Shown piece after piece: positions 18,209 to 62,872 of a stretch of 64,000 nt of DNA. The position numbers and the translations under genes are program-made. Numbering within the stretch: position 1 is the first letter of the stretch; each line of letters starts with the position of its first letter. The stretch covers positions 1-64,000 of the forward strand of contig JAFIET010000010.1 of NCBI GenBank assembly GCA_020832405.1, in the 5' to 3' direction. The DNA is from Balneolales bacterium. Lineage in GTDB: Bacteria > Bacteroidota > Rhodothermia > Balneolales > Cyclonatronaceae. The notes below the pieces were generated by a model that was not told the origin of the DNA, made no database searches, and saw only the letters and a list, made by a program, of their open reading frames with translations.

Positions 18209-18335
18209 AAACCCGTACCTTGGCATTCAAAAAATACAGCGGTTCGCCGTCCGCCGTCTGCCGTCCGATTGGAATCATTCCGCAAAACAAGTCGTTCAGC
18301 AAGCCTCTCAACCTTCAACCCCGTAACACCTTTTC

Positions 18336-19580: not shown

Positions 19581-19583
19581 TGA

Positions 19584-19771
19584 GATGGCACGCGGATTGT
19601 GCGGATCGGGCCGGATTTGCGCGGATTTTTTTTGGGGATGATGGGGGATGGAGCCCAATCAGGCTGCTCCTTTGCCCCCCTTCGCGCAACCCCTCGCGCC
19701 CTTCGCGGTTAAAACCGGCAGCTGATTTTTACCACAAAGGCCGCAAAGGATCTCACGAAGGACACGAAGCC
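19584..19771 (+). repeat. R1 intergenic repeat, forward copy (c4)
   Basis: GATGGCACGCGGATTGTGCG, GATCGGGCCGGATTTGCGCG, GATTTTTT, then CGCGCCCTTCGCGGTTAAAA and a CCGGCAGCTGATTTTTACCA, CAAAGGCCGC segment. The same modules appear in the same order as in copies c5 and c6. The copy fills the gap between the MFS gene and the PEGA protein. Confidence 0.88.
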
Positions 19772-19928
19772 AGTACCGCCCCGGTATGCCAGATAATTTC
19801 TACCAGGCACCGATTTTACTTCAGCTTTAAAGCTCAAAACAATATCTTTACAAGAAGCCCGAAAAAATCACGGATTGCTAACAGTGCGCGTCGGGCTTTG
19901 ATAATATTCTTTTCATTGTTTTGTCGCT

Positions 19929-21896: not shown

Positions 21897-21937
21897 TGCT
21901 GATGCCCAACCCGAACAGCCCCGAAACACCTCCCGCC

Positions 21938-24715
21938 ATGAAAAAGCTCTCCCTTACCCTCCTCACCAGCCTGCTGCTCGCCGCCGCCCTGCTCTACTGC
22001 ACCAGCCCAACCGAGCCGGTTTTTGACAACCCCTACGATGAGGAAAGCGGGGCCTACATCCCGACCCCGGATCTGAATACGGCGCCGGTACAACCTCTTG
22101 CGACTGCCGCCATTACCGGGGGCGTATTTGAGACGAATTTCGGAAGGCCCGTTACGAAGAAAGGTGTGTGCTGGAGCACTTCGGAAAATCCGACGATTGA
22201 GGATAACTGTTCGGATGAAGGACCCGGAACACAGCCATTCGAGACCCTGATTGAAGGACTTGATGTAACAACCCGGTACTATGTTCGGGCTTATGCCACC
22301 AATGATGCGGGTACGATTTACGGCGGACAGCGCAGCTTTACAACTCAATCGGGTGTGCCTGAACTGCAAACCGGGCAGGCAGATGAGATCAGGGCTTTGA
22401 GCGCTGTAGCGCAGGCTACCCTCGGTGAAGAAAACGGCGCGGTTGTATTGGATTGGGGAATCTGCTACCGGCCTGCCCAAAGCCCGGAAGAGGAAATCTG
22501 CCTTTCAGCAGTACAGCAGCAGCTGCTTGCAGGCGGCGCGCTCAGAGAAGCTGGGGATCTTTTTGCAGCTCGCGCCGCCTCCCAAAGGCAGGCACAGGCC
22601 GCCGGACGACAGAGCCGCAGCCTGAGCGCTGAAGCCGGGAGGCCGCAGCCCTCAGCAGGACCTGCATCCGAAAACCTGCAAAGCGGCCTCACCGCAGAGC
22701 GGGAGCAGCTGCAGCAGCGTCAGCCTGTGGCCGTGCAGCAAAGGCAGACACCGGCAAGAGAGCAAAGCTCAGATCGCTTACCTGCACAACTGCAAAACCG
22801 GGACCTCCCTGTGCTGCAGCAGCAAAACGAACTTTCGGGTCAGGCAGAAAGCCGGCCGGCAGCCGAAATTCTGAATACTGCTGACGGCAGCTTCACCGTA
22901 CAGCTTACCAACCTTCAGGCGGACACCGGGTACGAACTCCGGGCCTGGGCAGTGAATGACGCGGTTGGGGTGAGCTACGGGAATGTGGTTTCGTTTACAA
23001 CCATGGATGGCGTACCGGAAATAGAGTCGCAGCCCGCAGCTTCAGTTACGGCTTTTTCTGCTTCGGTTGAAAGTATAATTGAAAAAGATGGTGGCGATCC
23101 TATTACCGCACGCGGCATCTGCTATGGTGATATGCCGAACCCTGACCGGTCTGATAATTGTATAGCCGCCGGACAAGGTTTGGGAAGCTTTGAAATTACA
23201 CTTGAAGAACTCAATGCGGACACGCAGTATTTTGTGCGGGCCTATGCTGAAAACCGGGTTGGGGTGCATTTTGGCAATCAGATCAGCTTCGCTACCAACG
23301 ACGGCTTGCCGGGCATTACCACAAACCCTGCATCAGAAATCAGGGCATTTTCTGCGATAACGGGAGGAACCATTCAGCCGGACGGCGAAGCCCCTGTAAC
23401 CGGGCGTGGGGTTTGTTACGCAACTATCGAAAATCCAACTCTGGATGATAGTTGTATTCAAGCCGGAGAAGGAGAGGGAAGTTTTGAGGTCGAGCTTGGA
23501 GGTTTGAACCCCGATACTGAATACTTTATTCGAGCCTATGCGCAAAACGAAAGGAGCTTGGGGTACGGGAATGAAGTGTCGTTTACAACCTTACCTGTTC
23601 ATAATTTAAACCTCACTGCAAATCCACCAGGTTCTGGCAATGTGTCTGGAGGAGGTCAATTCGCAGCTGGTGTTATGAGAATTATTTCAGCCAATCCTGC
23701 GGCAGGATTTGAATTTGCAGGTTGGACCGGCGACATCTCTCATGTGGGTAACCCTAATTCAGCAACGACATCAATTACGATGCCTGCAAGTAATGTGAAC
23801 CTGGTTGCCAATTTTACACCTGTTCCAACTGTACCTACATACAGTTTAACACTCACGGCCAGCCCTTCAGGTTCGGGCACTGTAAGTGGAGGAGGGCAAT
23901 TCGCGGAAGGTGTTGTGAGATTTATTTCAGCTAACCCTGCGACAGGTTTTGAATTCGTAAGTTGGACCGGCGACACCTCTCATGTGAGTAATCCTAATTC
24001 AGCAACGACATCAATTACGATGCCTGCAAGTAATGTGAACCTGGTTGCCAATTTTACAACCCAGTCTAATGGAGGCTGGCCACGTGACACTGAAACACTT
24101 ATTCATGATGTTACTAATCCACACACCGGCCGCACATGGATGGACCGCAACCTGGGTGCTTCCCGAAGGGCTACATCTCCCACAGACTCTGAAGCCTATG
24201 GCGACCTCTACCAATGGGGGCGCGCGGCTGATGGGCATCAGAAACGTATTTCTGCAACAACTTCAAATTTAAGTTATACTGATTCACCAGAGCATGAAAA
24301 ATTTATATTAATTGACGTTAATAATCATTTTTCTCACTATGATTGGCGGGCTTTCCAAAACAACAGTTTTTGGCAAGGATTTGAAGGATTAAATAATCCA
24401 TGCCCTATGGGATATCGTATACCAACAATTGCTGAGTGGCAGATCGAAAAAGAAACTTGGGTAACTGAAGATCTAAACGGTGCTTATCAATCTATATTGA
24501 AATTGCAAGTCGCAGGTTCTAGAACCCCTGATAATGGTAATGTTATCAATGTGGGGATTAAAGGAAATTATTGGTCGAATACAGTTTCTGATTTATATAC
24601 AAATCCACTTTGGCGAATCTATGTTAGTGGTTTGTTAAACTTTGGTGTCAATGAAGTCACCCTTGATAGCCAGGCACGGGCAGTAGGGGCTTCAGTTCGA
24701 TGTATAAAAGATTGA
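21938..24715 (+). CDS. Mosaic surface lipoprotein: FN3-like repeats, InlB-like repeats, FISUMP domain
   Basis: This 925-residue lipoprotein (signal MKKLSLTLLTS, lipobox ALLYC) has four FN3-like units of the Bacteroidota type, each with a GxCY...NPT...C core, a GSFE/GSFT strand, and RAYAxN...SFTT. They fall at about 22.06-22.36, 22.36-23.01, 23.01-23.30 and 23.30-23.60 kb. The second is interrupted by a Gln/Ala/Arg/Ser-rich insert of roughly 120-150 residues (about 22.49-22.86 kb). Two InlB B-like repeats follow (23.60-24.06 kb). The C-terminal FISUMP domain runs from TGRTWMDRNLGASR through CPMGYRIPT.EW to RAVGASVRCIKD. DNA becomes clearly more AT-rich after about 23.6 kb, which suggests the 3' part was acquired separately. 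Likely adhesive and surface-exposed; no enzymatic motif. Confidence 0.85.
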   Translation: MKKLSLTLLTSLLLAAALLYCTSPTEPVFDNPYDEESGAYIPTPDLNTAPVQPLATAAITGGVFETNFGRPVTKKGVCWSTSENPTIEDNCSDEGPGTQPFETLIEGLDVTTRYYVRAYATNDAGTIYGGQRSFTTQSGVPELQTGQADEIRALSAVAQATLGEENGAVVLDWGICYRPAQSPEEEICLSAVQQQLLAGGALREAGDLFAARAASQRQAQAAGRQSRSLSAEAGRPQPSAGPASENLQSGLTAEREQLQQRQPVAVQQRQTPAREQSSDRLPAQLQNRDLPVLQQQNELSGQAESRPAAEILNTADGSFTVQLTNLQADTGYELRAWAVNDAVGVSYGNVVSFTTMDGVPEIESQPAASVTAFSASVESIIEKDGGDPITARGICYGDMPNPDRSDNCIAAGQGLGSFEITLEELNADTQYFVRAYAENRVGVHFGNQISFATNDGLPGITTNPASEIRAFSAITGGTIQPDGEAPVTGRGVCYATIENPTLDDSCIQAGEGEGSFEVELGGLNPDTEYFIRAYAQNERSLGYGNEVSFTTLPVHNLNLTANPPGSGNVSGGGQFAAGVMRIISANPAAGFEFAGWTGDISHVGNPNSATTSITMPASNVNLVANFTPVPTVPTYSLTLTASPSGSGTVSGGGQFAEGVVRFISANPATGFEFVSWTGDTSHVSNPNSATTSITMPASNVNLVANFTTQSNGGWPRDTETLIHDVTNPHTGRTWMDRNLGASRRATSPTDSEAYGDLYQWGRAADGHQKRISATTSNLSYTDSPEHEKFILIDVNNHFSHYDWRAFQNNSFWQGFEGLNNPCPMGYRIPTIAEWQIEKETWVTEDLNGAYQSILKLQVAGSRTPDNGNVINVGIKGNYWSNTVSDLYTNPLWRIYVSGLLNFGVNEVTLDSQARAVGASVRCIKD
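23721..24060 (+). repeat. Intragenic tandem duplication of InlB-like repeat
   Basis: Two segments starting at 23721 and 23961 (period 240 nt, 80 codons) are almost identical over about 98 nt, both reading GTTGGACCGGCGACA and later ATTACGATGCCTGCAAGTAA. Only four substitutions are visible up to the final Thr codons. The near identity at the DNA level, including third positions, indicates a recent duplication or gene conversion. Confidence 0.85.
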
Positions 24716-24754
24716 CAGATTATTTTTATAGTACATTAAATTAGTTAATTAGCT

Positions 24755-25882
24755 TTAGTCCAAAAACCCCCGGTAATTCTCCCGTGTAATTACCTCAAAA
24801 CTACTGTTAGGATAGGTTTCAAAAAACTCAGCCGGCTTGCGGACTTTGGCGTTGGGGTTCCATTTGAATTCGAAAGTACTCAGCCTTCCGCCGGCTTCTT
24901 CGAGATAGTCGATTTCCTTGCGGTCGTAGGTGCGCCAGAAGTAGCGATTCGGGAACTGCCGTTGGTTGTGCAGCAGCTTCATCCGCTCGGTAACACAAAA
25001 ATTCTCCCATAGTGCCCCGGTGTCATCGCGCTGCGAGAGGGGGTTGAAATTGTTGATGAGGCTGTTCCGGATGCCGTTGTCCAGAAAATACACTTTGAAG
25101 GATTTTGAAAGCTCCTTGCGCAGGTTTCGGCTGAATGAACCCAGCCGGAAAACCACAAAGCTTTTTTCCAGCAGCTCGATGTAGTTGCGGATGGTATGGT
25201 GGTTTTCACCCAGCAGCTTTGCAAGCTCGTTATAGGAAACCTCATGGCCCAGCTGAAGCGCCAGCGCCTGTAGCAGCTTAAATAACAGGTCAGACCGCTT
25301 GAGCTGATTAAACTGAAGCACATCTTTATACAGGTAGTTGGTCGAAATATCCCGAAGCTCCTCAAGGGCCTCTTCTTCGGGCTGACCGTACACATCGGGG
25401 TACATCCCGAACCGAAGCATATTTTCGAGCCTTGCATCCCAATCGACCGGCAGCGTTTCCTGAGAAATTTCGGTCAGTGAAAACGGGTAAAGCGTGAAGG
25501 TGCGGGAGCGGCCGGTCAGCGGTTCGCTCACGGACTGCGCCATGTCGAAAGAGGACGAGCCTGTGGCAATCAGCTGAATGTCCGGTCGCGTATCGGCCAG
25601 TACTTTCAGCGTGAGGCCAATGTTAGGAATGCTCTGCGCCTCGTCAAGCACAATTACTTTATAGTTGCCCAGAAAATCATTAAGCAGCGCTGTGTTGGTT
25701 GTTTCGAGCGCCTGTCGGTACTGCAAAATTTCACAGTTGATGTACCGCGCTTCATCACCAAACCCGGCAAGAAGTGCTTTGGAAAGGGTCGTTTTGCCGG
25801 TGCGGCGCGCTCCGTAAAGGATGATGACCTTCCCCTTAAACAAAAGCTTTTGGATGCTGTCCTGAATGCTGCGTCGGATCAT
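24755..25882 (-). CDS. AAA ATPase with DUF4143 domain (ATPase A)
   Basis: This 375-residue cytoplasmic ATPase has Walker A GARRTGKT (residues 24-31), Walker B VIVLDEAQ with Asp80-Glu81, and the sensor LIATGSSSFDM near 105-115. A winged-helix-like middle (EVSYNELAKLLGENHHTIRNYIELLEKSFVVF) follows, with a C-terminal domain whose strands KEIDYLEEAGG and FEFKW give the D...ExK pattern of the PD-(D/E)XK nuclease fold. This is the AAA_14/DUF4143 family, common in Bacteroidota and of unknown function. It is a tandem paralogue of ATPase B, on the same strand across a gap of about 220 nt. Two tandem 29-nt palindromic repeats lie 96-156 nt upstream. Confidence 0.9.
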   Translation of the reverse strand: MIRRSIQDSIQKLLFKGKVIILYGARRTGKTTLSKALLAGFGDEARYINCEILQYRQALETTNTALLNDFLGNYKVIVLDEAQSIPNIGLTLKVLADTRPDIQLIATGSSSFDMAQSVSEPLTGRSRTFTLYPFSLTEISQETLPVDWDARLENMLRFGMYPDVYGQPEEEALEELRDISTNYLYKDVLQFNQLKRSDLLFKLLQALALQLGHEVSYNELAKLLGENHHTIRNYIELLEKSFVVFRLGSFSRNLRKELSKSFKVYFLDNGIRNSLINNFNPLSQRDDTGALWENFCVTERMKLLHNQRQFPNRYFWRTYDRKEIDYLEEAGGRLSTFEFKWNPNAKVRKPAEFFETYPNSSFEVITRENYRGFLD

Positions 25883-25977
25883 GGCTGTGCTGCGTTATGG
25901 TAACGGTTCCGGGTATCAGTTGACCGCATCCTGCCGGGCGGAGTTAAACCTGATGCCCTATAAAGTAGGCAAAATAC

Positions 25978-26038
25978 AAATCTCGGAAGTCAACTTCCAA
26001 AATTTATATAAATCCCGGAAGTTTACTTCCGAAATTTA
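25978..26038. promoter_or_regulatory. Paired palindromic repeats upstream of ATPase A
   Basis: Two 29-nt units (25978-26006 and 26010-26038, period 32 nt) match at 25 of 29 positions. The core of unit 2 is CGGAAGT-TT-ACTTCCG; that of unit 1 is CGGAAGT-CA-ACTTCCA. Both have outer arms AAAT and ATTT. The symmetry suggests a dimeric protein binding site; the 32-nt period is close to three helical turns. No other copy was noticed in the window. Confidence 0.7.
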
Positions 26039-26102
26039 GGAAAAGGGAGGGCAGTCGCGTTATGCAGCCGCAGGGATAAACCATGCTTTCGGTTAAGGGC
26101 AA

Positions 26103-27245
26103 TCAGGCCGTGCCGGGGGTCACCCGGTCCATCATCACAAAATCTCTGAAGTTAGTCCGGTCGATGGTTTTGCTTTCTGCCTTGTAGGTGTTCGTGAAGC
26201 TTGCTGAGAGCCGTTCGCGCCCCTGCGCATCCCACTTGAACTCAAAACCGCTGATTCTGCCTCCCAGGTCCTCTACCCAGTCCACTTCCTGCTGCTGCTT
26301 GGTTCGCCAGAAATAGGTGCGGGCCAGTGACTCCTTATATGCAATTTGTTTTATGCGCTCTGAGACCAGAAAGTTTTCCCAAAGTGCCCCTTTGTCGGTT
26401 CGGGAGGCCGGCGGATCAAAGTTTCCGATAATCATGTTTCTCACCCCGTTGTCGTAGAAATAGATTTTATTGTTTTTCCTGATTTCATTGCGCAGGTTCC
26501 GGCTGAAAGCACCAAGCCGGAAAACAACATAGCCTTTTTCGAGAATTTCAATGTACCGGCTCACCGTTTTGGTGTCGAGGCCTGTCATTTGCCCAAGCTC
26601 CGCATAACTGACCTCGCTGCCAGTCTGAAAAGCAAGGGCACGCACGAGCTTGTCGAGGGCATCCGTTTTTTTGATGCCTCCGTAAATAAGCAGATCGCGG
26701 TACAGGTAGCTGTTTACAAGATTGCGCAGCACCGGAATTTCGTCGCCCGGCGACATGAGCACATCCGGATAAAACCCGTATATCAGCCTGTGCTCAAGCT
26801 GCTGTTGTGAGGCGAGGTACCCGTGCTGCTGCTCGAATTCTTCCCAGGAAACCGGAAAGAGCTGATACTCCCACTTGCGGCCGGTAAGGGGCTCGTTAAG
26901 CTGATTTGCAAGATCAAAAGAGGATGAACCGCTCGCAAACAGCTGAACCTGTTTGAACTGATCCGTGATGATTTTCATGGTCTGACCGATGTCGGGTATT
27001 CGCTGCGCTTCATCAATAAAAACCCGGCTGTATGTTCCGAGGATGGAGCGAATCCGCCCTGTATCCGCTCCGCCTAACATTTCCCGTGTTGAGGGGTCGT
27101 CACCGTTGAGAAAAAGAAAAGGCGTACCGCGAAGAATGGTCGTCATAAGCGTTGTTTTGCCGACCTGTCGGGGCCCCGTAACAATGATTGCCTTGCCGGA
27201 ACCAATCCGTTTCTCGATGGAAGCCTGCAGGGTGCGTTTGTACAT
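26103..27245 (-). CDS. AAA ATPase with DUF4143 domain (ATPase B)
   Basis: This 380-residue paralogue of ATPase A has Walker A GPRQVGKT (24-31), Walker B VFIDEAQRIPD with Asp78-Glu79, and the sensor LFASGSSSFDLA. A winged-helix segment (EVSYAELGQMTGLDTKTVSRYIEILEKGYVVF) follows, and the C-terminal nuclease-like block is QQQEVDWVEDLGG followed by FEFKW. The catalytic-looking Glu/Asp...Glu-x-Lys pattern is kept. It is transcribed toward ATPase A with no coupling. Its own upstream repeats (27303-27371) differ completely in sequence from those of A. A DNA- or chromosome-related role is only inferred from the domain structure. Confidence 0.9.
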   Translation of the reverse strand: MYKRTLQASIEKRIGSGKAIIVTGPRQVGKTTLMTTILRGTPFLFLNGDDPSTREMLGGADTGRIRSILGTYSRVFIDEAQRIPDIGQTMKIITDQFKQVQLFASGSSSFDLANQLNEPLTGRKWEYQLFPVSWEEFEQQHGYLASQQQLEHRLIYGFYPDVLMSPGDEIPVLRNLVNSYLYRDLLIYGGIKKTDALDKLVRALAFQTGSEVSYAELGQMTGLDTKTVSRYIEILEKGYVVFRLGAFSRNLRNEIRKNNKIYFYDNGVRNMIIGNFDPPASRTDKGALWENFLVSERIKQIAYKESLARTYFWRTKQQQEVDWVEDLGGRISGFEFKWDAQGRERLSASFTNTYKAESKTIDRTNFRDFVMMDRVTPGTA

Positions 27246-27302
27246 GGCGGAGGGGTTTAGGGGAAAAGTCAGGAGCTTGTTTACCGGTAAAGATAATCAA
27301 AA

Positions 27303-27371
27303 CATAACCATTCCGGAATCAAATCCATTTTGGTCATAACCATTCGGGATTTCATTCCGGAATGGTCATAA
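27303..27371. promoter_or_regulatory. Paired palindromic repeats upstream of ATPase B
   Basis: Two adjacent 32-nt units start at 27303 and 27335. Both begin CATAACCATTC and end TTTGGT or AATGGT, and are followed by a third CATAA. Within them are the palindromes ATTCCGGAAT and CATTCCGGAATG, and the long-range pair ACCATTC / GAATGGT. The block begins 58 nt before the ATPase B start. Confidence 0.65.
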
Positions 27372-27531
27372 ACGCAGGCTTTCCGGAAGTGAAGGCTTCC
27401 GTGACTCAGCTCAAAAATCCCGCCTCCGGACACGCACAAATCCTGCCTTTCGGGCTTCCCGAAAAAGGGTTCAAAAAAGTATATTGGCACAGCACTACTC
27501 GCTGCAATCTCAAATTTTCCGAATCCGCTTT

Positions 27532-28938
27532 ATGAAAACAAGTCTGGCCGTTTTTCTGCTGATTTTACTGACGGGATGTCGGGAGGCCGCGTCTCAGACC
27601 GTGTCCGGCATCCTCACGGAGCATGCCGGTCAGGAGGTGCGCCTCGAGGGCTTTCGCGGCTTCGATACCCGGCTAATCAGCAGCGGCAGGGTTTCTGACA
27701 GCGGGGAATTCTCGCTTTCGTATGCCGGCGAGCAGCCGGGCATGGCGCTGCTTTCGGCGGGCGGCGGCAGCCCGTTTGTGGTTGTACTTTCGGGTGAAGA
27801 CATCCGGCTCGAAGGGGCGTCGCCGGCCATGCCCGAAACCATGCGGGTGGTGGAGGGCACCGAAAACCGGCTGTTTGAGCAGTACGCCTCGGAGCATCCG
27901 CGGCGCGAGCAGGCCCTCAGCGCCTGGATTTACCTGCGCACCCTTTATGATGCCGATTCGCTCTTCGCCGCGCATCAGCTACCCCGCGAGGCCATTGCAG
28001 CCGAAATCGCGCGCATCCGCGCAGAAGATGAAGCCTTCCTCTCGGCGCTTGATCCCGACACCTACATCAGCTGGTATCTGCCGGTCCGGCGGCTTGTGAG
28101 CGCGGTGCCGGTTGTGGCGCAGTTCCGCACGGAGGAAATCCCGGCAACCATCGAAGCCTTCCGGCAGCTCGACCATACCGAACCGCGCCTGTACCGCAGC
28201 GGTCTCCTCGCCGATGTGCTGGAAAGCCACGTGTGGCTGATCGAAAACAGCGGGCGTGATCTCGATGCGGTCTTTGAGGCGCTGAACCGCTCCGCCGATA
28301 TCCTCACCGAAAACCTCTCAGCCGATCCCGTGCGCTTCCGGGAGCTCACCGCATTCCTGTTTGAGCTGCTTGAAAGGCGGAGCCTGTTTGCCTCATCAGA
28401 GCATCTTGCGCGCCGGCTGCTCACGCAGTACCCGGAGCTGCCTGACCGGAACCTGCGCGCAAAGCTGGAAATCTACGGCGCCATGCGCATCGGCAACACC
28501 GCTCCCGAACTTGTTTTCGGTCCGCTCACGCACCGACCCGATGGTCTGTCAGCGGAAAGCCTGAGCGGGGTGGATGCTGATTTCGTGCTGGTCGTCTTCG
28601 CCGCAGGTTGGTGCGCCGCCTGCCGGGAGATGCTGCCCGAACTGCGGACAAGGTACCAAAGCTGGCGTGAACAGGGGGTGGAAGTTGTGCTGGTAAGTCT
28701 GGATGATGCGCCCGAAGCCTTTGAAGCCTTCACCGCCGGGCTGCCCTTTCCGGCCACCACCGACCTGAAAGGCTGGGAAAGCGCCGCCGCCCTCGACTGG
28801 CACGTGCACAGCCTGCCCGCCTTCTGGCTGCTGGACCGCGACCGCAGGATTATCCTGCGCCCCAACTCCGTAAGGCACGCCCATGCCTGGGTTGACTGGC
28901 ACCTCATACAGGGCAACCCCATCCCCTCCCCGCGCTGA
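27532..28938 (+). CDS. Thioredoxin-like (TlpA/ResA-type) lipoprotein
   Basis: This 468-residue envelope protein has a lipoprotein signal (MKTSLAVFLLILLTGC). The N-terminal part resembles the DUF4369-like beta domain common in Bacteroidota (VSGILTEHAGQEVRLEGF), followed by a long helical middle and a C-terminal thioredoxin fold with active-site CAAC (Cys361, Cys364) in GWCAACREM. The cis-Pro region is SLPAFWLLD. Such proteins act as thiol-disulfide reductants in the periplasm, often for cytochrome or outer-membrane protein maturation; the partner is unknown here. The start was chosen at the signal peptide; an upstream in-frame initiator would add 16 residues. Confidence 0.87.
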   Translation: MKTSLAVFLLILLTGCREAASQTVSGILTEHAGQEVRLEGFRGFDTRLISSGRVSDSGEFSLSYAGEQPGMALLSAGGGSPFVVVLSGEDIRLEGASPAMPETMRVVEGTENRLFEQYASEHPRREQALSAWIYLRTLYDADSLFAAHQLPREAIAAEIARIRAEDEAFLSALDPDTYISWYLPVRRLVSAVPVVAQFRTEEIPATIEAFRQLDHTEPRLYRSGLLADVLESHVWLIENSGRDLDAVFEALNRSADILTENLSADPVRFRELTAFLFELLERRSLFASSEHLARRLLTQYPELPDRNLRAKLEIYGAMRIGNTAPELVFGPLTHRPDGLSAESLSGVDADFVLVVFAAGWCAACREMLPELRTRYQSWREQGVEVVLVSLDDAPEAFEAFTAGLPFPATTDLKGWESAAALDWHVHSLPAFWLLDRDRRIILRPNSVRHAHAWVDWHLIQGNPIPSPR

Positions 28939-28949
28939 TCTCCCGGTTG

Positions 28950-29265
28950 ATGGCACGCGGATTGAGCGGATCGGGCCGGATTTCCGCGGATTTTTTGGGG
29001 GGTTGATGCACCGAACCCCGCCCCCATGTCATTTCGAACGCTTATCAGGTGGAAGGAACTCTCCGAAGCATCCGGGAGGGGAGAAGCAGGAAAATGACCG
29101 AAGCGTAATGTGAGAAATCCCCAAAGCCAGCCCCCCACCCTTCGCGGTCTTCGCGCATCCCTTCGTGACCTTCGCGGTTAAATTCCGGCAGCTGATTTTC
29201 ACCGCGAAGGCCGCTAAGGATGTCGCGAAGTCCGCAAATAGTAGGGTGCCGGATGGCCCGCGGAA
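28950..29265 (+). repeat. R1 intergenic repeat, forward copy (c5), interrupted by R2
   Basis: It starts GATGGCACGCGGATTGAGCG, GATCGGGCCGGATTTCCGCG. It is split by an R2 element at about 29027-29122, then resumes with CCTTCGCGGTCTTCGCG, GACCTTCGCGGTTAAA, CGGCAGCTGATTTTCACCGC and GAAGGCCGC. It ends immediately before ATPase C (stop side). Confidence 0.87.
29027..29122 (+). repeat. R2 repeat nested in R1
   Basis: It begins TGTCATTTCGAACGC, contains CCGAAGCATCCGGG and ends TGTGAGAAATCCCC. This is the TCATYTCGAACG ... GTGAGARATCYCC family, also present at 58.3-58.6 and 60.0-60.6 kb. R1 copy c6 lacks this insert, so R2 seems to have arrived inside c5. Confidence 0.75.
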
Positions 29266-29295
29266 CGGGTCAGATTTCAGTTACCCCGTACGCTT

Positions 29296-30489
29296 CTAAT
29301 ACAAAAAACCAAACAGCCAAAGCGGGATGCGGTTGCCATATCCGGTTTCGATGCCGTCGATGGCGAGCCATGCGTTTTCTTCACCTGAAATCTGTGCGGC
29401 GGTCTTGTTTTTGCCGCCCACTTCAAGGAGCAGGCTGCGATCAATGAGGAAGTCGCCACGATCAGGCTCGTGCACGGTGTGGATCGGAGCAAGCTGACTA
29501 AGCAGGAATGATTCGCGCTGCGTGCCGGGGTTCACCTCACCCGGATTAAGGCTGTGCATGATATTGGGATGGCTCAGGTAAACTTTTTCCGGCTTGGTAA
29601 GCAGGCTGATCCCTTTTTTCGCACTAAACAGGGATCGTGTGAGCCCCGCCAAATCAAGATAGCGGAAATAAGCCTTCAGGTTGTTTTTGCCTGTCTGCAT
29701 GCGTTCCGCAAGTTTGTCGATGTTAGGTTTAAAAGGCACACTATGGCTGATGATGTGCAAGAGCTGTTTTACCTTTTCCATACTTGCCGGGCTGATCCCG
29801 GTAGTGAGCAGTAAATCGGACTCGATAACCCGGACAACCGTTTCCCGAAGGCGCAAATCGTAAGTTTGCGGGTTCTCGAAATAATAGGGGTAGTAGCCCC
29901 CGCGCAGGTAATCCTCAAAATGCTGAAGCGGCCTGATTTCCTGCCAGATCGTTTTTGCAATCTGCTGATGGTCGCTCAGAATGGAACTTAGCGGAATAAC
30001 ATCGAAAGTCTTTCCCGTAGCAAACTGAATATACTCGCGAAAGGAAAGCCCCGGAAGGTCGTAAATCACGGCCCGCCTCGAAAGCTCACCAAGGCCCTCA
30101 CTCAGCTGAAGCATGGATGAACCGGTAAACAAAACATGAAGCCCGGGATAGCGGTCATAAATGTTCTTCATTTCACGGGCCCAGCCACTGTAGCTGTGCA
30201 CTTCATCGATGAGAAGGTACTCGCCGCCCCGTTTCACAAATGCATCTGCAAAATCGGCAAGTCCCTGCTGCGCAAAAGCAATATCATCCAGACTGACATA
30301 TATTTTTTTCTTGTCCTGAAGCTTCATCCGGGCAAACTGAAGCAACAGCGTCGATTTGCCGACTCCCCGGGCACCCTTGATTCCAATCATGCGTCCGCCC
30401 TCAGAAAGCTGAGCCAGCTGATTTCTTACAACCGCTTCCGGCGCATGTGAGATGAGCCGTTCAGAAATTTCGAATAAATAATCCATCAT
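29296..30489 (-). CDS. AAA ATPase with DUF4143-type C-terminus (ATPase C)
   Basis: This 397-residue ATPase has Walker A GARGVGKS (39-46), Walker B LLIDEVHSYSGW with Asp95-Glu96, and the sensor VLFTGSSMLQLS. Its helical middle includes SVPFKPNIDKLAERMQ and GKNNLKAYFRYLDLAGL. The C-terminal nuclease-like block is GDFLIDRSLLLEVGGKNK, in which the usual E-x-K is spread as LEVGGK. The last 30 residues deviate from the other three ATPases. The gene lies between two direct R1 copies (c5 and c6) and has its own palindromic repeats touching the start codon. Two start codons are adjacent (30489 and 30486). Confidence 0.87.
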   Translation of the reverse strand: MMDYLFEISERLISHAPEAVVRNQLAQLSEGGRMIGIKGARGVGKSTLLLQFARMKLQDKKKIYVSLDDIAFAQQGLADFADAFVKRGGEYLLIDEVHSYSGWAREMKNIYDRYPGLHVLFTGSSMLQLSEGLGELSRRAVIYDLPGLSFREYIQFATGKTFDVIPLSSILSDHQQIAKTIWQEIRPLQHFEDYLRGGYYPYYFENPQTYDLRLRETVVRVIESDLLLTTGISPASMEKVKQLLHIISHSVPFKPNIDKLAERMQTGKNNLKAYFRYLDLAGLTRSLFSAKKGISLLTKPEKVYLSHPNIMHSLNPGEVNPGTQRESFLLSQLAPIHTVHEPDRGDFLIDRSLLLEVGGKNKTAAQISGEENAWLAIDGIETGYGNRIPLWLFGFLY

Positions 30490-30492
30490 AAT

Positions 30493-30547
30493 ATCGGTCT
30501 GTGTTCAGACCGAATTTACTTGTAAATCGGTTCACGTCCAAACCGAT
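30493..30547. promoter_or_regulatory. Paired palindromes at the start of ATPase C
   Basis: Palindrome 1 is TCGGTCTG-TGTT-CAGACCGA (30494-30513, perfect 8-nt arms). Palindrome 2 is ATCGGTT-8 nt-AACCGAT (30526-30547). Centre-to-centre distance is 33 nt. The first lies only 4 nt from the ATG, so a bound protein or an RNA hairpin there would block translation. Confidence 0.7.
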
Positions 30548-30562
30548 ATCTGATGTGCGCCT

Positions 30563-30772
30563 AATGGCACGCGGATTGTGCGGATCGGGCCGGATTTGCG
30601 CGGATTTTTTTGATAATGGGGTGATGAGGATGAGGCCCAATCCCCCCTTCGCGGTCTTCGTGCAACCCTTCGCGCCCTTCGCGGTAAATAAACGGCAGCT
30701 GATTTTCACCGCGAAGGCCGCAAAGGGTGTCGCAAAGTTCGCAAAGGTCACGGTGTGGCGGATGGTACACGG
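30563..30772 (+). repeat. R1 intergenic repeat, forward copy (c6)
   Basis: ATGGCACGCGGATTGTGCGG, ATCGGGCCGGATTTGCGCGG, ATTTTTTTG, then CCTTCGCGGTCTTCGTG, CCCTTCGCGCCCTTCGCGG, CGGCAGCTGATTTTCACCGC and GAAGGCCGCAAAGG. It is close to c4 and c5 and in the same orientation, with no R2 insert. Confidence 0.88.
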
Positions 30773-30824
30773 AGGCGGTAAAAAACCGGCGCTTAATCCA
30801 TGGCTCTCAACGCATCCTTCACCC

Positions 30825-31865
30825 CTAAAAAATCTCGATATCGCCTATGCTGAAACGGTTGCTTTCGGGGGTGGCCTGTTTGGGCTGCCAGGTGCGCACG
30901 TGTATCAGGGGTTCTTCTTCGCTTCGGAAATCGATCAGCAGGAAGAGGTAGCCCACATCGGAGTAGGTTTGGGAGTTGTAGTACTGCACCAGCGACACGC
31001 CGTACATGTGCGGCTGCTGCGGGTGCCGGAAGATGTCGATGTCCTCAAAGCCCACATCAATCCAGGCGTTTCGGGCGAACACCCCGCGCAGGCGGCTCAG
31101 GTATTCTTCCTTATTGAAGCGCAGGAATTCAACCTTCTCCTGCTGCTCATATTCGGAGCTTTTGCCGGTGCTCTCCACAACCCGACCCACGATAATCAGG
31201 GCTTCATCGCTGAACACCTGTTCGATGAAAGCGATGTCTTTCTGATTGAAGGCCGTGCGGAAAATTTCGAGAAAGCTGATGATCATCATCCTGTTTTCGT
31301 GATCGACCGCGCTGTCGGCGGCACGGATGAGCGCCTGATAGCGGTGTGCGGGAAGCGCGAGCCGGAGGCCGGATACGCTGCCGTCGGCGCTGAACTCCAG
31401 CACGCCCTCCTCAAAATGCTCATCGCCTGACTGATCCCGCATCATCAGCGGGATGTTGCGCATCTCCCAGCTGCCGTCGCTGCGGCGGGCGAGCTGCTCG
31501 ATGATGATGTCGTCATCCACATAAAACCGACTCACGCTCCACAGGCGGCCGAAGCCGACCGCGTCGAAGGCCGCGTGGGTTTCCCGCCCGAAATTCGGAC
31601 GGCGCTGCAGGCCGAAAGAGCGGTTGATTTCCGTGAGAAAAGCCGTAGCATTGCGTTCAATCAGTCCGCCAAAACTGCTGTCCGAAAAATCGGCAACGTT
31701 CACCAGCACCTCCGCCGGCGGGTCAGATGGTTCACCGGAGGCACCAAGGGCCTGTATAATGGGCACTAAGCTCATCACCCCCGCTATCAAAACGAAAAAC
31801 AGCCGGCGGAAAGACGCCAGGTGTAATGGAAAATGTCGTTGCAGTAATAGATATGAAGAATTCAT
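30825..31865 (-). CDS. Secreted protein of unknown function
   Basis: This 346-residue protein has an N-terminal hydrophobic segment (RRLFFVLIAGVMSLVPIIQALGA) that acts as a signal peptide or anchor. The mature part is mixed alpha/beta. Its C-terminal half, with FLEIFRTAFNQKDIAFIEQVFSDEALIIVGRVV and the late strands YGVSLVQYYNSQTYSDVGYLFLLIDF, has the look of an NTF2/SnoaL-like cone fold; that is a visual inference. I do not recognise the family. It lies 59 nt downstream of the following larger secreted protein on the same strand and is very likely in the same operon. Confidence 0.7.
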   Translation of the reverse strand: MNSSYLLLQRHFPLHLASFRRLFFVLIAGVMSLVPIIQALGASGEPSDPPAEVLVNVADFSDSSFGGLIERNATAFLTEINRSFGLQRRPNFGRETHAAFDAVGFGRLWSVSRFYVDDDIIIEQLARRSDGSWEMRNIPLMMRDQSGDEHFEEGVLEFSADGSVSGLRLALPAHRYQALIRAADSAVDHENRMMIISFLEIFRTAFNQKDIAFIEQVFSDEALIIVGRVVESTGKSSEYEQQEKVEFLRFNKEEYLSRLRGVFARNAWIDVGFEDIDIFRHPQQPHMYGVSLVQYYNSQTYSDVGYLFLLIDFRSEEEPLIHVRTWQPKQATPESNRFSIGDIEIF

Positions 31866-57710: not shown

Positions 57711-57977
57711 CTAATCCAGATACTTGTCGAAATACTCCTCTACCCAGCCCTTCAGGGTAGATTCCGGCACCGGCAGGAAAAAGCTCTTTTTTAGGTCAAC
57801 CGTGATTTCATCACCCGAATCAGCGATATAGCCCGAAACCAAATTGCCGTTAAAACGCAGGGTATCGCCCTCCCATTTATGGCCGATACCAAACTTCTTC
57901 TGCATATCGCCCGCAATAATGCCGAGCGCCTCGCGCACTTCTTCCTTGCTTTTGCTGTGCTTTCGTGTGAGTTTCAT
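57711..57977 (-). CDS. Polyhydroxyalkanoic-acid-system family small protein
   Basis: This 88-residue protein matches the small family found with PHA granule systems: a basic N-terminus and EEVREALGIIAGDMQKKFGIGHKWEGDTLRFNG, with strands NLVSGYIADSGDEITVDLKKSFFLPV followed by the helix WVEEYFDKYL. The fold resembles a one-domain START-like strand-helix arrangement. It need not imply PHA synthesis; no phaC gene is in view. It is convergent with the gene at 57693, separated by 17 nt. Confidence 0.72.
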   Translation of the reverse strand: MKLTRKHSKSKEEVREALGIIAGDMQKKFGIGHKWEGDTLRFNGNLVSGYIADSGDEITVDLKKSFFLPVPESTLKGWVEEYFDKYLD

Positions 57978-58125
57978 GCTCTGTCCTGCTCCGTATTGAG
58001 GTGAGGGGTAAGTGTATAAGCCGGACTATATAAACAACAAAAAAACGGAAATCAACCAGGCAGCATACCAGAATCCGGCATCTGTCATTTTTCCGCCCCG
58101 TTTTTTTAGGGTGAAATTTTGAGAA

Positions 58126-58186
58126 CATCACTGTCTTTCGTGCTTGTGACAAATCCCAAATCAACGGCATGTCCCGTGCCTTTTTT
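58126..58186 (-). repeat. R3 repeat, inverted copy left of ATPase D
   Basis: CATCACTGTCTTTCGTGCTT, then GTGACAAATCCCAAATCAAC and GGCATGTCCCGTGCC followed by T-run. This is the near-perfect reverse complement of the R3 copy at 60.33 kb: only one substitution and one 1-nt indel were visible over about 54 nt. Confidence 0.9.
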
Positions 58187-58285
58187 TTTGAGGTCCCTTC
58201 CTGATCTTAGCCCGCAGACCATGTAGCAGCTCTAAGTTACCTGATGTGCACAGTCCTGAACCCCCAAAAAAACAAATCAAACAAA

Positions 58286-58575
58286 TGTCATCTCGAACAG
58301 CGGCGTATGGCAATGAGCCTGCCAAAGTCTGTGCAAGCAGCACAGTCGCGAAACCATTCGAAGCATCATGTGAGAGATCTCCAAAGGTGGCCTGCCCGGC
58401 ACTTTCTGAGCGCCCCGAAAAAAGCCTGCGTGCTGGCCCGCCATCCGCCGCCCCGTGGCGTATTCATGTGAAGGAGATTCCTCACATGATGCTTCGGCAG
58501 CCAATCGGGCGGGTCCGGCCCAAAGCCTTCGGCAAGCTCCCTGCCACACGAGCAGCGTTCGGAATGACACGGGGG
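58286..58575 (+). repeat. R2 composite repeat left of ATPase D
   Basis: It begins GTCATCTCGAACAGCGGCGT, ATGGCAATGAG and CGAAACCATTCGAAGCATCA, TGTGAGAGATCTCC. The second half begins GGAGATTCCTCACATGATGC and ends GCAGCGTTCGGAATGACACG, the inverted form of the same element. The pair is thus head-to-head. A matching direct copy occurs on the other side of the ATPase at 60032-60244. Confidence 0.85.
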
Positions 58576-58641
58576 AGGGTGTCGGGAGTGGGTATGGGGT
58601 TAGGGCAATGCCCTAATGTGGCACCAAGTTTGAAAAAAGAC

Positions 58642-59847
58642 TCAGCTGAAATACTCCCGGCAGGGAACAGCGATCGCCGTGAGGCCATCCTGCTCAAACC
58701 GGTCGTGCTGATTAAGTGTGATGATGTGCCCTTCCTGCAATCCAAAAAAGCGGAGGGCTTCAAAAAGGCCGTTCAGCTCCCTTTCAAGATTATCAGCCGT
58801 CAGTTTCAGGCAAACCTGTATTACCTCAGCGGGCCTGCTTTTTTCGACCGCGATAAAATCGCACTCACCCTTTTCTTTGAAATAGCAGATCTCCCTGTAT
58901 CTGCGTCTCAGAAACAGAAAAACAAGATTTTCAAACACCGGACCCCAATCAGAAGTGAACGACTTTGAATTGACCTGCACGAGTCCGGTATCGATCGCAT
59001 AAACCTTTCTTGGGTTCACGTTCTGCTTTTGTACCGAATAGCTGAATTTGGGCACAAAGAAGAATAGCCAGGACTGCTCCAAGTGCGAGAAATACTCCAT
59101 TACCGTACTTGTGGCACTGATACCGATCTGCGACTTGAGCTTGTTTGCGCTAACCAGTCTGCCTGTGTTGGATACAAGAAAAAGCGCAAGCCGCTGCAGC
59201 GATTTCACATCCCGAACGCCGTAGCGTACGGCGATATCCCGTATCAGAATGTCGTTAAACAGCTGATGCAGCACATCGTCGTTTCCGCTTTTGAGATACT
59301 CCGGAAAGCCGCCCTCGTTCATGTAATTCTGAAACAGCGCATCGGATGGCTGCAGCCCTCTTAACCGCAAAAACTCCGGCCACGAAAAGGGGAACAGTTC
59401 GGTGCTCAGATGCCTGCCGGTCAGCCGTGAGCCCAACTCCTGACTCAGCAGGGAGGCGTTCGATCCCGTAATGATCAGCCTGCAGCCTTCGTCGAGCTTC
59501 TGCCGCACGTACAACTCCCAGCCTTCCACAACCTGAATTTCATCAAAGAAGAGCAGCTTTTTCTCTGATTCATGCAGGATGTCATCGAGCCGCGCAAAAT
59601 CCCTGAGGTCGAAGCCGTACAGGCGCGGGTCTTCAAAGTTCAGAAAAAATGCATCCGCATAGTCCCCGTGCAGCAGCTGATGCATGAGCGTACTTTTCCC
59701 GCAGCGGCGTATGCCCGAGATGATAAGCGCATGCGCATCAGGTTCGGGCAGCCGGTGCATGGCATCGCGCATGAGCCCCGTTTCCCTGCCGCGCAAATTA
59801 TCCCGCTGCGCCCGCGCAACATCCGCAATGGTAGTTTTGGTAATCAT
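58642..59847 (-). CDS. AAA ATPase with DUF4143 domain (ATPase D)
   Basis: This 401-residue ATPase has Walker A GIRRCGKS (45-52), Walker B LLFFDEIQVVEGWE with Asp102-Glu103, the sensor LIITGSNASLLS and the helical arm LTGRHLSTELFPFSWPEF. A winged-helix-like part (VSANKLKSQIGISATSTVMEYFSHLE) follows, and the C-terminal nuclease-like block is GECDFIAVEKSRPAEVIQVC. The last motif has E-x-I-Q rather than E-x-K, so the catalytic Lys is replaced by Gln. The gene is enclosed by direct R2 composites and inverted R3 copies, and has its own palindromic pair upstream. Confidence 0.9.
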   Translation of the reverse strand: MITKTTIADVARAQRDNLRGRETGLMRDAMHRLPEPDAHALIISGIRRCGKSTLMHQLLHGDYADAFFLNFEDPRLYGFDLRDFARLDDILHESEKKLLFFDEIQVVEGWELYVRQKLDEGCRLIITGSNASLLSQELGSRLTGRHLSTELFPFSWPEFLRLRGLQPSDALFQNYMNEGGFPEYLKSGNDDVLHQLFNDILIRDIAVRYGVRDVKSLQRLALFLVSNTGRLVSANKLKSQIGISATSTVMEYFSHLEQSWLFFFVPKFSYSVQKQNVNPRKVYAIDTGLVQVNSKSFTSDWGPVFENLVFLFLRRRYREICYFKEKGECDFIAVEKSRPAEVIQVCLKLTADNLERELNGLFEALRFFGLQEGHIITLNQHDRFEQDGLTAIAVPCREYFS

Positions 59848-59874
59848 ATTTTTCTCTGGTTTGACGCAAAGCTA

Positions 59875-59930
59875 CAAATTTGTTGTTTAGCAACAAACAA
59901 TAGTGTTGTTTGGCACCAAACAAAAATATG
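59875..59930. promoter_or_regulatory. Paired palindromes upstream of ATPase D
   Basis: The first palindrome is TTTGTTG-TTTAG-CAACAAA. The second is TTGTTTGG-CA-CCAAACAA. Both share TGTTGTTT starting at 59881 and 59904 (23 nt apart), roughly 30 nt before the ATG. They match each other, but not the palindromes of ATPases A, B or C. Confidence 0.7.
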
Positions 59931-60031
59931 ACCGCGCTATCGCGAGATCGTTTTGCCGGGGCCTGATCCGCTTCGGAGATTCGCCGCATTGATGAGCACA
60001 GTCATGAAAACCCAACAAAAAAAAACAACAG

Positions 60032-60244
60032 GTCATCTCGAACAGCGGCGTATGGCAATGAGCCAACCGAAGCCACAAAAAGCGGCCCAACCGCGAAACC
60101 ATTCGAAGCATCATGTGAGAGATCTCCATAGGTTGCGTTGCCCGGCACTTTCTCAACGCCCCGAAAAGTCCATTCGGGCGGGACTTGCTCAGAGGCTACG
60201 GCAGATTCCCTGCAAATTAAGCAGCGTTCGGAATGACACGGGGG
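60032..60244 (+). repeat. R2 composite repeat right of ATPase D (direct copy)
   Basis: The start GTCATCTCGAACAGCGGCGT, ATGGCAATGAG and CGAAACCATTCGAAGCATCA is the same as in the 58286 copy. The end GCAGCGTTCGGAATGACACG is also shared. The middle has diverged or is shortened, so this copy is about 213 nt rather than 290 nt. Confidence 0.85.
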
Positions 60245-60324
60245 CGCGGGCGAAAGACCAGGTAATTCCGGACCGATCCGATAAATCCGTGTGCTGTTAT
60301 TACATCAAAATTTTGGCATACAAC

Positions 60325-60399
60325 CAAAAAAGCACGGGATATGCCGTTGATTTGGGATTTGTCACAAGCACGAAAGACAGTGATGCTCACGGAGTTTTC
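60325..60399 (+). repeat. R3 repeat, right of ATPase D
   Basis: GCACGGGATATGCCGTTGAT, TTGGGATTTGTCACAAGCAC, GAAAGACAGTGATG, then CTCACGGAGTTTTCC. Reverse complement of the copy at 58126; together they enclose about 2.15 kb holding ATPase D. Confidence 0.9.
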
Positions 60400-60449
60400 C
60401 CAAAAAAAATCTGCGGTTATTTATTGCAACTGGGGTGTGCTCCGGCTTC

Positions 60450-60553
60450 GGAGATTCCTCACATGATGTTTCGGCGGCACCAAGAGGCGGGGTAGGCTCA
60501 AAGATTTCGGCAAGTTCCCAGTAACATGTGCAGCGTTCGGAATGACACGGGGG
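60450..60553 (-). repeat. R2 repeat, inverted single copy
   Basis: GGAGATTCCTCACATGATGT, then TTCGGCAAGTTCCCAGTAAC, and CAGCGTTCGGAATGACACGG. Same element as the second half of the 58286 composite. Confidence 0.78.
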
Positions 60554-60627
60554 TAGGTTTGGTGATGTTGAGAATTTCGTTCTGCCGTAATTCCTGACGG
60601 GGACAACTGCGGTCAGCGGTCATTAAA

Positions 60628-60691: not shown

Positions 60692-62872
60692 TTAGCGGTT
60701 GCGCGCGTCTTCGATTTCGCGGACGAGGCGGTCGGCGCGGTACACGTGACGCAGGGCTTCGAGCATGCCGCGGCTATCCACCGAAACGGCGCGGGCGCTG
60801 CGGTCGTCGAGGATGAGGGTGCTCGAGCCCATGCTTTCTACGTTGCCGTCGAAAGCGAGACCCACAACTTCGAGGCGGGTGTTAACCACCGGCGAACCGG
60901 AGTTGCCCCCGATGATATCATTGGTGGAAACAAAGTTGAGGGGCGTAGCGAGGTCGAGCGTTGCCGATGGCGTAGCCCAGCGCTCGGGCAGCGCCCACTC
61001 CGGCTCGTTGCGGTGCGAGTGATGGCGGTCGTACAGGCCGTAAAAGGTGGTATAAGCCGGTGCGAAGGTGCCGTTGTATTCGTAGCCGGCCACTACGCCG
61101 TCTGCGATGCGGGGCGAGAAGGTTGCATCAGGCGGGATGCTCGTGCCGTACACCGCGAACCAGCCGCGACCCAGACGGGTTTCGAGCTGATTTTCTTCCA
61201 TACCGAGCATCTGAAAGGCCATGGTGTTGTCGAACAGCGTGCTGCCGAATGCCATGAAGTAATCGAGTGCCGGATCGCTCCAGCTGTCGAAATCAGTCTG
61301 CACGAAGGCCGCGGTCTGCTCCTGCGTGGCAAGGGCGGAATTTTCAACGAGGTAGCGGGCAAACGCTGCTTTGTCGCGGCCATTGAGGATGCGGGCGAGG
61401 TATTCGGAGTCTTCCCCTAACAGGCTTGCCAGGTAGTGCAGGTGATTTTCGATCATGATGACTTCGGCTTCGGCTTCTTTGTCGCCGATATTGGCGATGC
61501 TGCCGACGGCCCGGCTGCGGGTTTCGCTGTCGAGCTCCTGATGGTTCAGGCGGTAGGCCACGAGTGCGCGCTGCAGCAGGGCTGAGCTGAGCCCGGAATT
61601 TGGCTGCATGCCGATGCTCATGAGGTACGGATAGGGCGCGAGGGAAGCCTTCAGCTCCTGAATTTCGGCAATGCGCTCAATAATGGGGATGAATTCCTCC
61701 GCCAGGGCGGGGTCTTCGCGCAGGCTTGCGATGAAGTTGTTTTCGTTATCGGTGCGGCGGCCCATCAGGTAAGGGTCGCGGTGCGCGAGTACCTGTCCGC
61801 CGTAGAGTTTCTCGGCGTTGCGCAGACCGAAAATGGTATTACGCAGCTGCTGCGCCTCTTCGGTATCCGGATCGAGGGCAAAAATGGCATCAAGCCCGTT
61901 CAGGGTGTGGTACAGGAAATTGTGAATGATGTCGAGCTGAAACTGCCCGGCGTAGGTCAGCTGTGCCACGGTGTTGAGGCGTGTTGTGCTGCCGGGGTTG
62001 CCGATCACAAAAACACCGTCGCCGCTTTCCACGCCCTGTGTGGCAAAGGGGAAGAAAAAGGGGGTTTCGAGCGGGGCATCATCTTCATATACCCGCATGA
62101 ACGACATATCGAGATTGTAGCGCGGGTAGGTGAAGTTGTCGGTATCGCCGCCGTAGTAGCCGATCTGCAGCTCAGGCGCCATCACCATCCTGACATCGCT
62201 GTAGCGGCGGAAAAAGTAGGCCGAGTAGCGGCCGCCGTTGAACAGCGAAACCACCTGAACCACGATGTTGTCGCTTTCGTCAAATTCAGCACTGAGCTCG
62301 GCCTGCACCCGCTGAATCACCTGCGAGCGGACCTGCGCCTGCTGTTCGATGGGGGCGGAGTCAACTTCATCCAGAATCAGATCGGTGAGGTCGCGGATAT
62401 CGACCAGCTGATCGAGGTAGTAGCCCTCAATCATGCGCTCGTCGGAGAGGGTTACGGCGTAGAAGCCGTCGTCGAGGGTGCGCTCGCCTTCCCGGCCGAT
62501 TTGCGTAATCTGATCGCGCACACAGTGATGGTTGGTCATTACGAGGCCGTTAGGCGAGATGAAGGAACCGGAGCACCCGGGCAGGCGGACCGCACCGAGG
62601 CGGGCGCGCTCAAACCAGGCGTCGTCGGGGTCGAAGTTGTAGGTTTCGGCAAAGTATTCGACCGGTGCATGCTCGAAGGTCCACATGCGGCCGTTGTCGA
62701 GAATGCTCGAAGGTAGCGGCTCGAAAACCGGAAGCAGGGAAACTGGTGCCGGTTCTGTAACCGGCTGAGGAGCGGCGGGCTGCTCAGCCGTTTGCTGAGG
62801 GGCCGCGCAGGATAGCACAAAGAGAAGGCTGAAAACAGCCGTCAGGTGTTTCAGGGATGGGAATTGGTACAT
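60692..62872 (-). CDS. S46-family serine peptidase (DPP7/DPP11-like) lipoprotein
   Basis: This 726-residue peptidase has a lipoprotein signal (hydrophobic core TAVFSLLFVL, then SCAAP with Cys22), followed by Pro/Ala-rich linker. The S46 catalytic fold shows His115/His116 in TNHHC, the block GGDTDNFTYPRYNLD with the probable Asp, and Ser658 in GGNSGSP. Family members release dipeptides from the N-terminus of peptides in the periplasm or at the surface. The Gly/Arg position that decides DPP7 versus DPP11 specificity was not assigned, so substrate preference is left open. The terminator at 60628-60665 ends the unit. Confidence 0.94.
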   Translation of the reverse strand: MYQFPSLKHLTAVFSLLFVLSCAAPQQTAEQPAAPQPVTEPAPVSLLPVFEPLPSSILDNGRMWTFEHAPVEYFAETYNFDPDDAWFERARLGAVRLPGCSGSFISPNGLVMTNHHCVRDQITQIGREGERTLDDGFYAVTLSDERMIEGYYLDQLVDIRDLTDLILDEVDSAPIEQQAQVRSQVIQRVQAELSAEFDESDNIVVQVVSLFNGGRYSAYFFRRYSDVRMVMAPELQIGYYGGDTDNFTYPRYNLDMSFMRVYEDDAPLETPFFFPFATQGVESGDGVFVIGNPGSTTRLNTVAQLTYAGQFQLDIIHNFLYHTLNGLDAIFALDPDTEEAQQLRNTIFGLRNAEKLYGGQVLAHRDPYLMGRRTDNENNFIASLREDPALAEEFIPIIERIAEIQELKASLAPYPYLMSIGMQPNSGLSSALLQRALVAYRLNHQELDSETRSRAVGSIANIGDKEAEAEVIMIENHLHYLASLLGEDSEYLARILNGRDKAAFARYLVENSALATQEQTAAFVQTDFDSWSDPALDYFMAFGSTLFDNTMAFQMLGMEENQLETRLGRGWFAVYGTSIPPDATFSPRIADGVVAGYEYNGTFAPAYTTFYGLYDRHHSHRNEPEWALPERWATPSATLDLATPLNFVSTNDIIGGNSGSPVVNTRLEVVGLAFDGNVESMGSSTLILDDRSARAVSVDSRGMLEALRHVYRADRLVREIEDARNR

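Follow-up and report, generated by a model that had tools for sequence, protein, structure and literature searches.

An AAA_14/DUF4143 ATPase gene probably occupies a repeat-rich, rearrangement-prone intergenic gap rather than a mobile cassette in a Balneolales bacterium

Near the right end of the window analyzed here (a 64,000-nucleotide stretch of a Balneolales bacterium contig, JAFIET010000010.1), a single ATPase gene, ATPase D, lies between direct copies of one repeat, R2, which are themselves enclosed by inverted copies of another, R3. The initial annotation read this nested symmetry as a mobile or recombining unit. Is the arrangement a cassette, or is it a gap between genes in which repeats and an ATPase gene have come to lie side by side? 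The locus contains the following features.

57711-57977, minus strand: PHA_gran_rgn gene, left boundary; joined in the sister species to the MFS gene (window 18256-19580) instead
58103-58184, minus strand (strand as that of model R1): left R3 copy; outer T6G5 end toward the PHA gene
58286-58577, plus strand: complete R2 copy of about 290 bp; ends GTCATCTCGAAC... and ...GTTCGGAATGACAC; internally self-complementary
58642-59847, minus strand: ATPase D gene, AAA_14 (PF13173) plus DUF4143 (PF13635), 401 aa
59859-59926, minus strand: operator-like array at the ATPase D promoter; two TTGTTTGN(5-6)AAACAACA palindromes and a degenerate third, 23-bp period
60032-60244, plus strand: shortened second R2 copy
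60327-60408, plus strand: right R3 copy, inverted relative to the left copy; outer end toward the 3' end of the S46 peptidase gene
60441-60553, plus strand: right half of R2 only, outside the R3 pair; a corresponding R2 half lies beside the sister S46 gene (L084:10493-10605)
60692-62872, minus strand: S46 peptidase gene, right boundary; joined in the sister to the gene at window 20070-21893 instead

Both sets of repeats are real. The inverted R3 arms proved longer than originally described, at 82 nt each with 89% identity (85% over 89 nt when an inverted-repeat search widens them to 58102-58190 and 60321-60409), and ATPase D lies between direct R2 copies as reported, the right copy being 86% identical over 136 nt. 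With up to 3 mismatches allowed, the R3 core is expected by chance 0.01 times in the window and was found twice; the repeats are therefore far beyond chance as sequence. The third R2 half (82% identity), beyond the right R3, had been missed. Codon-score gene calls within the R3 pair returned ATPase D alone and no transposase.

A sequence model derived from 31 R3 copies recovered 96 copies in this 3.96-Mb genome, or about one per 41 kb, and at least 150 in the complete genome of the sister species (G005). The same search of 39 other relatives gave no match in 38 and one marginal match (E = 0.008), and an exact search for the R3 core in the GTDB genome set returned 10 scattered matches in unrelated organisms, about the level of chance. 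Nearly all copies examined (163/164) lie between genes, and most have A/T tracts at both ends. R3 has no palindrome of the kind that folds into the hairpin of a REP sequence. It matched no Rfam family, and alignments of 31 and 103 copies contained no conserved fold or covarying pairs; a structured RNA was rejected on these grounds. We also rejected a coding repeat, given one-base indels and, by eye, no three-base rhythm in the invariant columns.

R3 copies are strongly oriented with respect to genes. The T6G5 end is the gene-nearer end in 54 of 63 copies here and in 68 of 90 in the sister, most commonly about 80 nt past a gene's stop codon. All R3 pairs less than 500 bp apart (21/21) share one inverted orientation, with T6G5 ends outward on both sides of unrelated spacers of 28 to 448 bp. 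Such pairs occur in convergent, divergent, and tandem gaps, and a role as mere terminators of convergent genes was rejected for this reason. R3 orientation in the sister also leans with the replichore (98:52, or about 65:35), the positions of origin and terminus having been read from GC skew in sampled stretches. As a dispersed element, R3 is confined to the two sister species; it has polarity but no palindrome.

The orientation rule does not extend to longer distances. Eight R3-R3 gaps of 500 to 3500 bp were seen, compared to about 7 expected by a hand estimate from density, and they have no orientation bias (5 in one inverted order, 3 in the other). The 2.1-kb pair around ATPase D is therefore not by itself remarkable: R3 sequences are beyond chance, but the enclosure of ATPase D by an R3 pair is not. 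These gap counts lend weight to pure coincidence, that is, dispersed repeats falling into a long gap and appearing nested, with no boundary role for R3; so does contig C133, where R2 adjoins R3 with no ATPase at all. The strength of the R3 polarity rule argues the other way. The R3 pair at ATPase D is unusually well matched (mate ranks 1 and 2 of 63, equaled among the listed pairs by one other, in the sister). A recent common origin or conversion would account for this, although the pair was chosen for looking alike.

Many R3 copies are conserved in place. A copy was found at the same position and in the same orientation in the sister for 13 of 22 testable copies, a fraction biased upwards because a copy was testable only when an ortholog of its flanking gene fell within the sister stretches retrieved, and most of those stretches were picked around sister R3. 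An R3 copy and its positional ortholog are scarcely more similar than two copies taken at random, although the intergenic DNA around them mostly cannot be aligned between the two species; this pattern fits either constraint to one consensus or conversion between copies. The left R3 at ATPase D has such a positional ortholog (L135:7784-7867), identically oriented and upstream of the same gene, with no ATPase present; the left R3 is therefore older than the composite. The right R3 has no counterpart at the sister's S46 ortholog.

These observations bear directly on the proposal that R3 forms the terminal inverted repeats, and R2 the inner direct repeats, of a mobile or invertible 2.3-kb ATPase D unit. 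The proposal draws on the mutual likeness of the 89%-identical arms, the invariably inverted short R3 pairs, and the different location of ATPase D in the sister. However, the complete R3-R2-ATPase-R2-R3 arrangement was found at no second site in either genome searched, R3 and R2 are scattered genome-wide and nearly always lack an ATPase, ATPase D also occurs without R3, and the left arm is kept at the same sister gene where there is no unit. With a third R2 half beyond its arms and no transposase within them, a mobile unit of this form is very improbable.

Like R3, R2 forms a dispersed family in the two sister species (17 places here, 13 in the sister); two more genomes of the genus gave weak, partial matches to it. 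R2-type repeats were observed at many contig ends (C178, C35, C39, C162, C155, C4, C114, and C137), where they probably break the assembly, making the R2 copy count a lower bound.

ATPase D itself has a history separate from that of the repeats. Its ortholog in the sister (89% amino acid identity) lies at another place, with neither R3 nor R2 beside it, and is flanked instead by an unrelated 342-bp direct repeat (94% identity). In that sister region (L195:7983-11272), the ortholog between the 342-bp repeats is followed by what appears by eye to be a transposase remnant. Homologs at 63 to 70% identity were found in 11 further genomes of three families, and the R3 search found no R3 in four other genomes with a homolog (G001, G004, G033, and G040). 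No neighbor is common to this locus and the homologs, and few are shared among the homologs themselves. The ATPase D tree mixes families, one family-f4 homolog nesting inside the family-f1 clade with 0.99 support; the gene is therefore exchanged horizontally, and its distribution is patchy. The palindrome array, with its 23-bp period, is conserved upstream of homologs across families; the palindromes therefore belong to the gene, and R2 and R3 to the place. This contrast between palindromes owned by the gene and repeats owned by the place illustrates how nested symmetry can mislead. The block shared with the sister (58640-59924) comprises ATPase D and its operator array. We rejected its sharp edges as proof of a cassette, since homology between the two species stops at gene borders generally.

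The ATPase D protein matches AAA_14 and DUF4143, both above cut-off, and belongs to an expanded group (16 DUF4143 copies here, 14 in the sister). In the C-terminal domain, the EFK of paralog A is replaced by QVC in ATPase D (placed by eye), and a nuclease-like site may therefore be altered. Any ATPase or nuclease activity is predicted from sequence motifs. The predicted structure is of middling confidence, its best matches being weak ones to AAA+ and STAND ATPases; no solved relative was found by sequence, and no function for AAA_14 plus DUF4143 ATPases was found in the literature searched.

The initial annotation is supported in part, in that the spot is recombining and variable, though not a mobile unit; the locus coincides with a synteny breakpoint between the species. 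Two segments, 20049-25971 and 30825-57977, have the opposite orientation in the sister relative to their neighbors, and the breakpoints fall at an R1 repeat (19580-20049), at the ATPase B/C cluster (26037-30825), and at ATPase D (57977-60613). The window joins MFS to the 20070 gene and PHA to S46, whereas the sister joins MFS to PHA_gran_rgn and the 20070-21893 gene to S46. A jump of ATPase D between species was considered and is not needed, since inverting segment 30825-57977 brings its other end beside ATPase D; turnover of the flanking repeats is then still required. The sister also carries, beside its S46 region, a remnant of the ATPase A ortholog (L084:5438-5734; 87% identical over the last 78 residues). 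Between the two species, no clean empty site or target duplication was found for R2 or R3 in the unalignable intergenic DNA, which makes insertion and turnover in place indistinguishable at this locus.

One orthologous R3 pair encloses 92 bp here and 4.2 kb in the sister, where the interior holds small open reading frames and direct repeats of 330 and 116 bp. Among R3 intervals of 0.6 to 5.5 kb, internal direct repeats occur in 4 of 14 inward-facing intervals compared to 0 of 27 in other orientations (a small sample; P of about 0.01 by hand). DUF4143-type genes are themselves associated with repeats, in context counts based on gene calls from a simple codon-score script. Direct repeats are present in both 1-kb flanks of 5 of 22 such genes versus 5 of 456 controls drawn from stretches fetched for holding R3 or DUF4143 (Fisher P = 3 × 10−5), although the repeat in 2 of those 5 is a palindrome and could be a feature of the gene. 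DUF4143-type ATPase genes also have a neighboring R3 more often than expected (8 versus about 2).

Several further features of these genes were observed. A strong tandem repeat lies within 150 bp upstream of 13 of 18 non-redundant AAA_14/DUF4143 genes, as against 42 of 456 controls; its sequence differs from gene to gene, yet 7 of the 13, and none of the 42, have a period of exactly 32 bp. Examples are ATPases A and D of the window and genes at L197, L144, and L141. On contig C13 (L139:5008-6293), a DUF4143 gene is bracketed by two copies of a 41-bp palindrome (98% identical), one immediately ahead of the start codon and the other just past the stop. In the window, ATPase C (29296-30489) matches AAA_14 with no DUF4143 match at a cut-off of 0.001, and direct R1 repeats flank it.

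The 4/14 versus 0/27 contrast, the 92-bp/4.2-kb pair, and the direct repeats at DUF4143 genes together favor an R3-bounded variable slot, without a mobile unit, over pure chance. With R3 polarity, these same results weigh against coincidence, which we regard as unlikely. In its stronger form, the slot idea would make R3 a conserved, polar boundary element at the edges of genes and the space between inward-facing R3 copies a tolerated site where accessory genes, including DUF4143 ATPases with their gene-specific iterated palindromes, may be gained and lost through recombination of direct repeats; we put this forward only tentatively, as something possible but doubtful. If R3 does mark insertion-tolerant slots, they would account for the places at which a compact genome takes up accessory genes.

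The locus as a whole is probably a repeat-rich, rearrangement-prone intergenic gap that happens to hold ATPase D, and not a mobile cassette. R3 copies sit at the edges of intergenic gaps, usually with one fixed end toward the nearer gene, and two facing copies thereby bracket the middle. The middle would gain and lose accessory genes, ATPase D among them, along with other dispersed repeats (R2, R1, and the 342-bp repeat of the sister). The rearrangements may be driven by homologous recombination among dispersed copies of the repeats, which would make repeat-flanked genes easy to lose or exchange. ATPase D would travel as a gene with its own operator array, independently of R2 and R3.

Among known systems, the closest parallel to R3 is the REP/BIME/REPIN group (PMC3116915), whose members are likewise present in many copies, intergenic, lineage specific, and often arranged as inverted doublets. 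R3 could by analogy be a REPIN-like non-autonomous mobile element whose inverted doublets replicate with the help of a transposase encoded elsewhere. Its more than 100 intergenic copies, lineage-specific spread, replichore bias in the sister, and over-represented inverted doublets in one fixed orientation are what such an element would resemble, known REPIN doublets being 93% inverted (PMC3116915). R3 differs, however, in being 82 bp long, with neither palindrome nor conserved structure and with unrelated doublet spacers of any length; doublet members are mostly no more alike than random copies, and many copies are old and have kept their positions. The cognate RAYT transposase (Y1_Tnp) has five copies in the sister and none in this assembly of 188 contigs, in which a copy may have been missed; a Y1 transposase was accordingly rejected as the mover of R3. 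Overall, a REPIN-like origin is improbable. ATPase D resembles the AAA_14/DUF4143 ATPases in having both domains and differs in carrying QVC in place of the EFK of paralog A. As described in PMC2759123 and PMC3532100, RU, MITE, and STAR repeats are, like R3 and R2, short and scattered between genes; no clean empty site or target duplication is shown for R2 or R3, and R2 resembles a MITE in its complementary ends and long imperfect palindrome. Beside these families, R3 stands as a high-copy intergenic repeat of two sister species, polar, lacking an Rfam match, and conserved at many positions.
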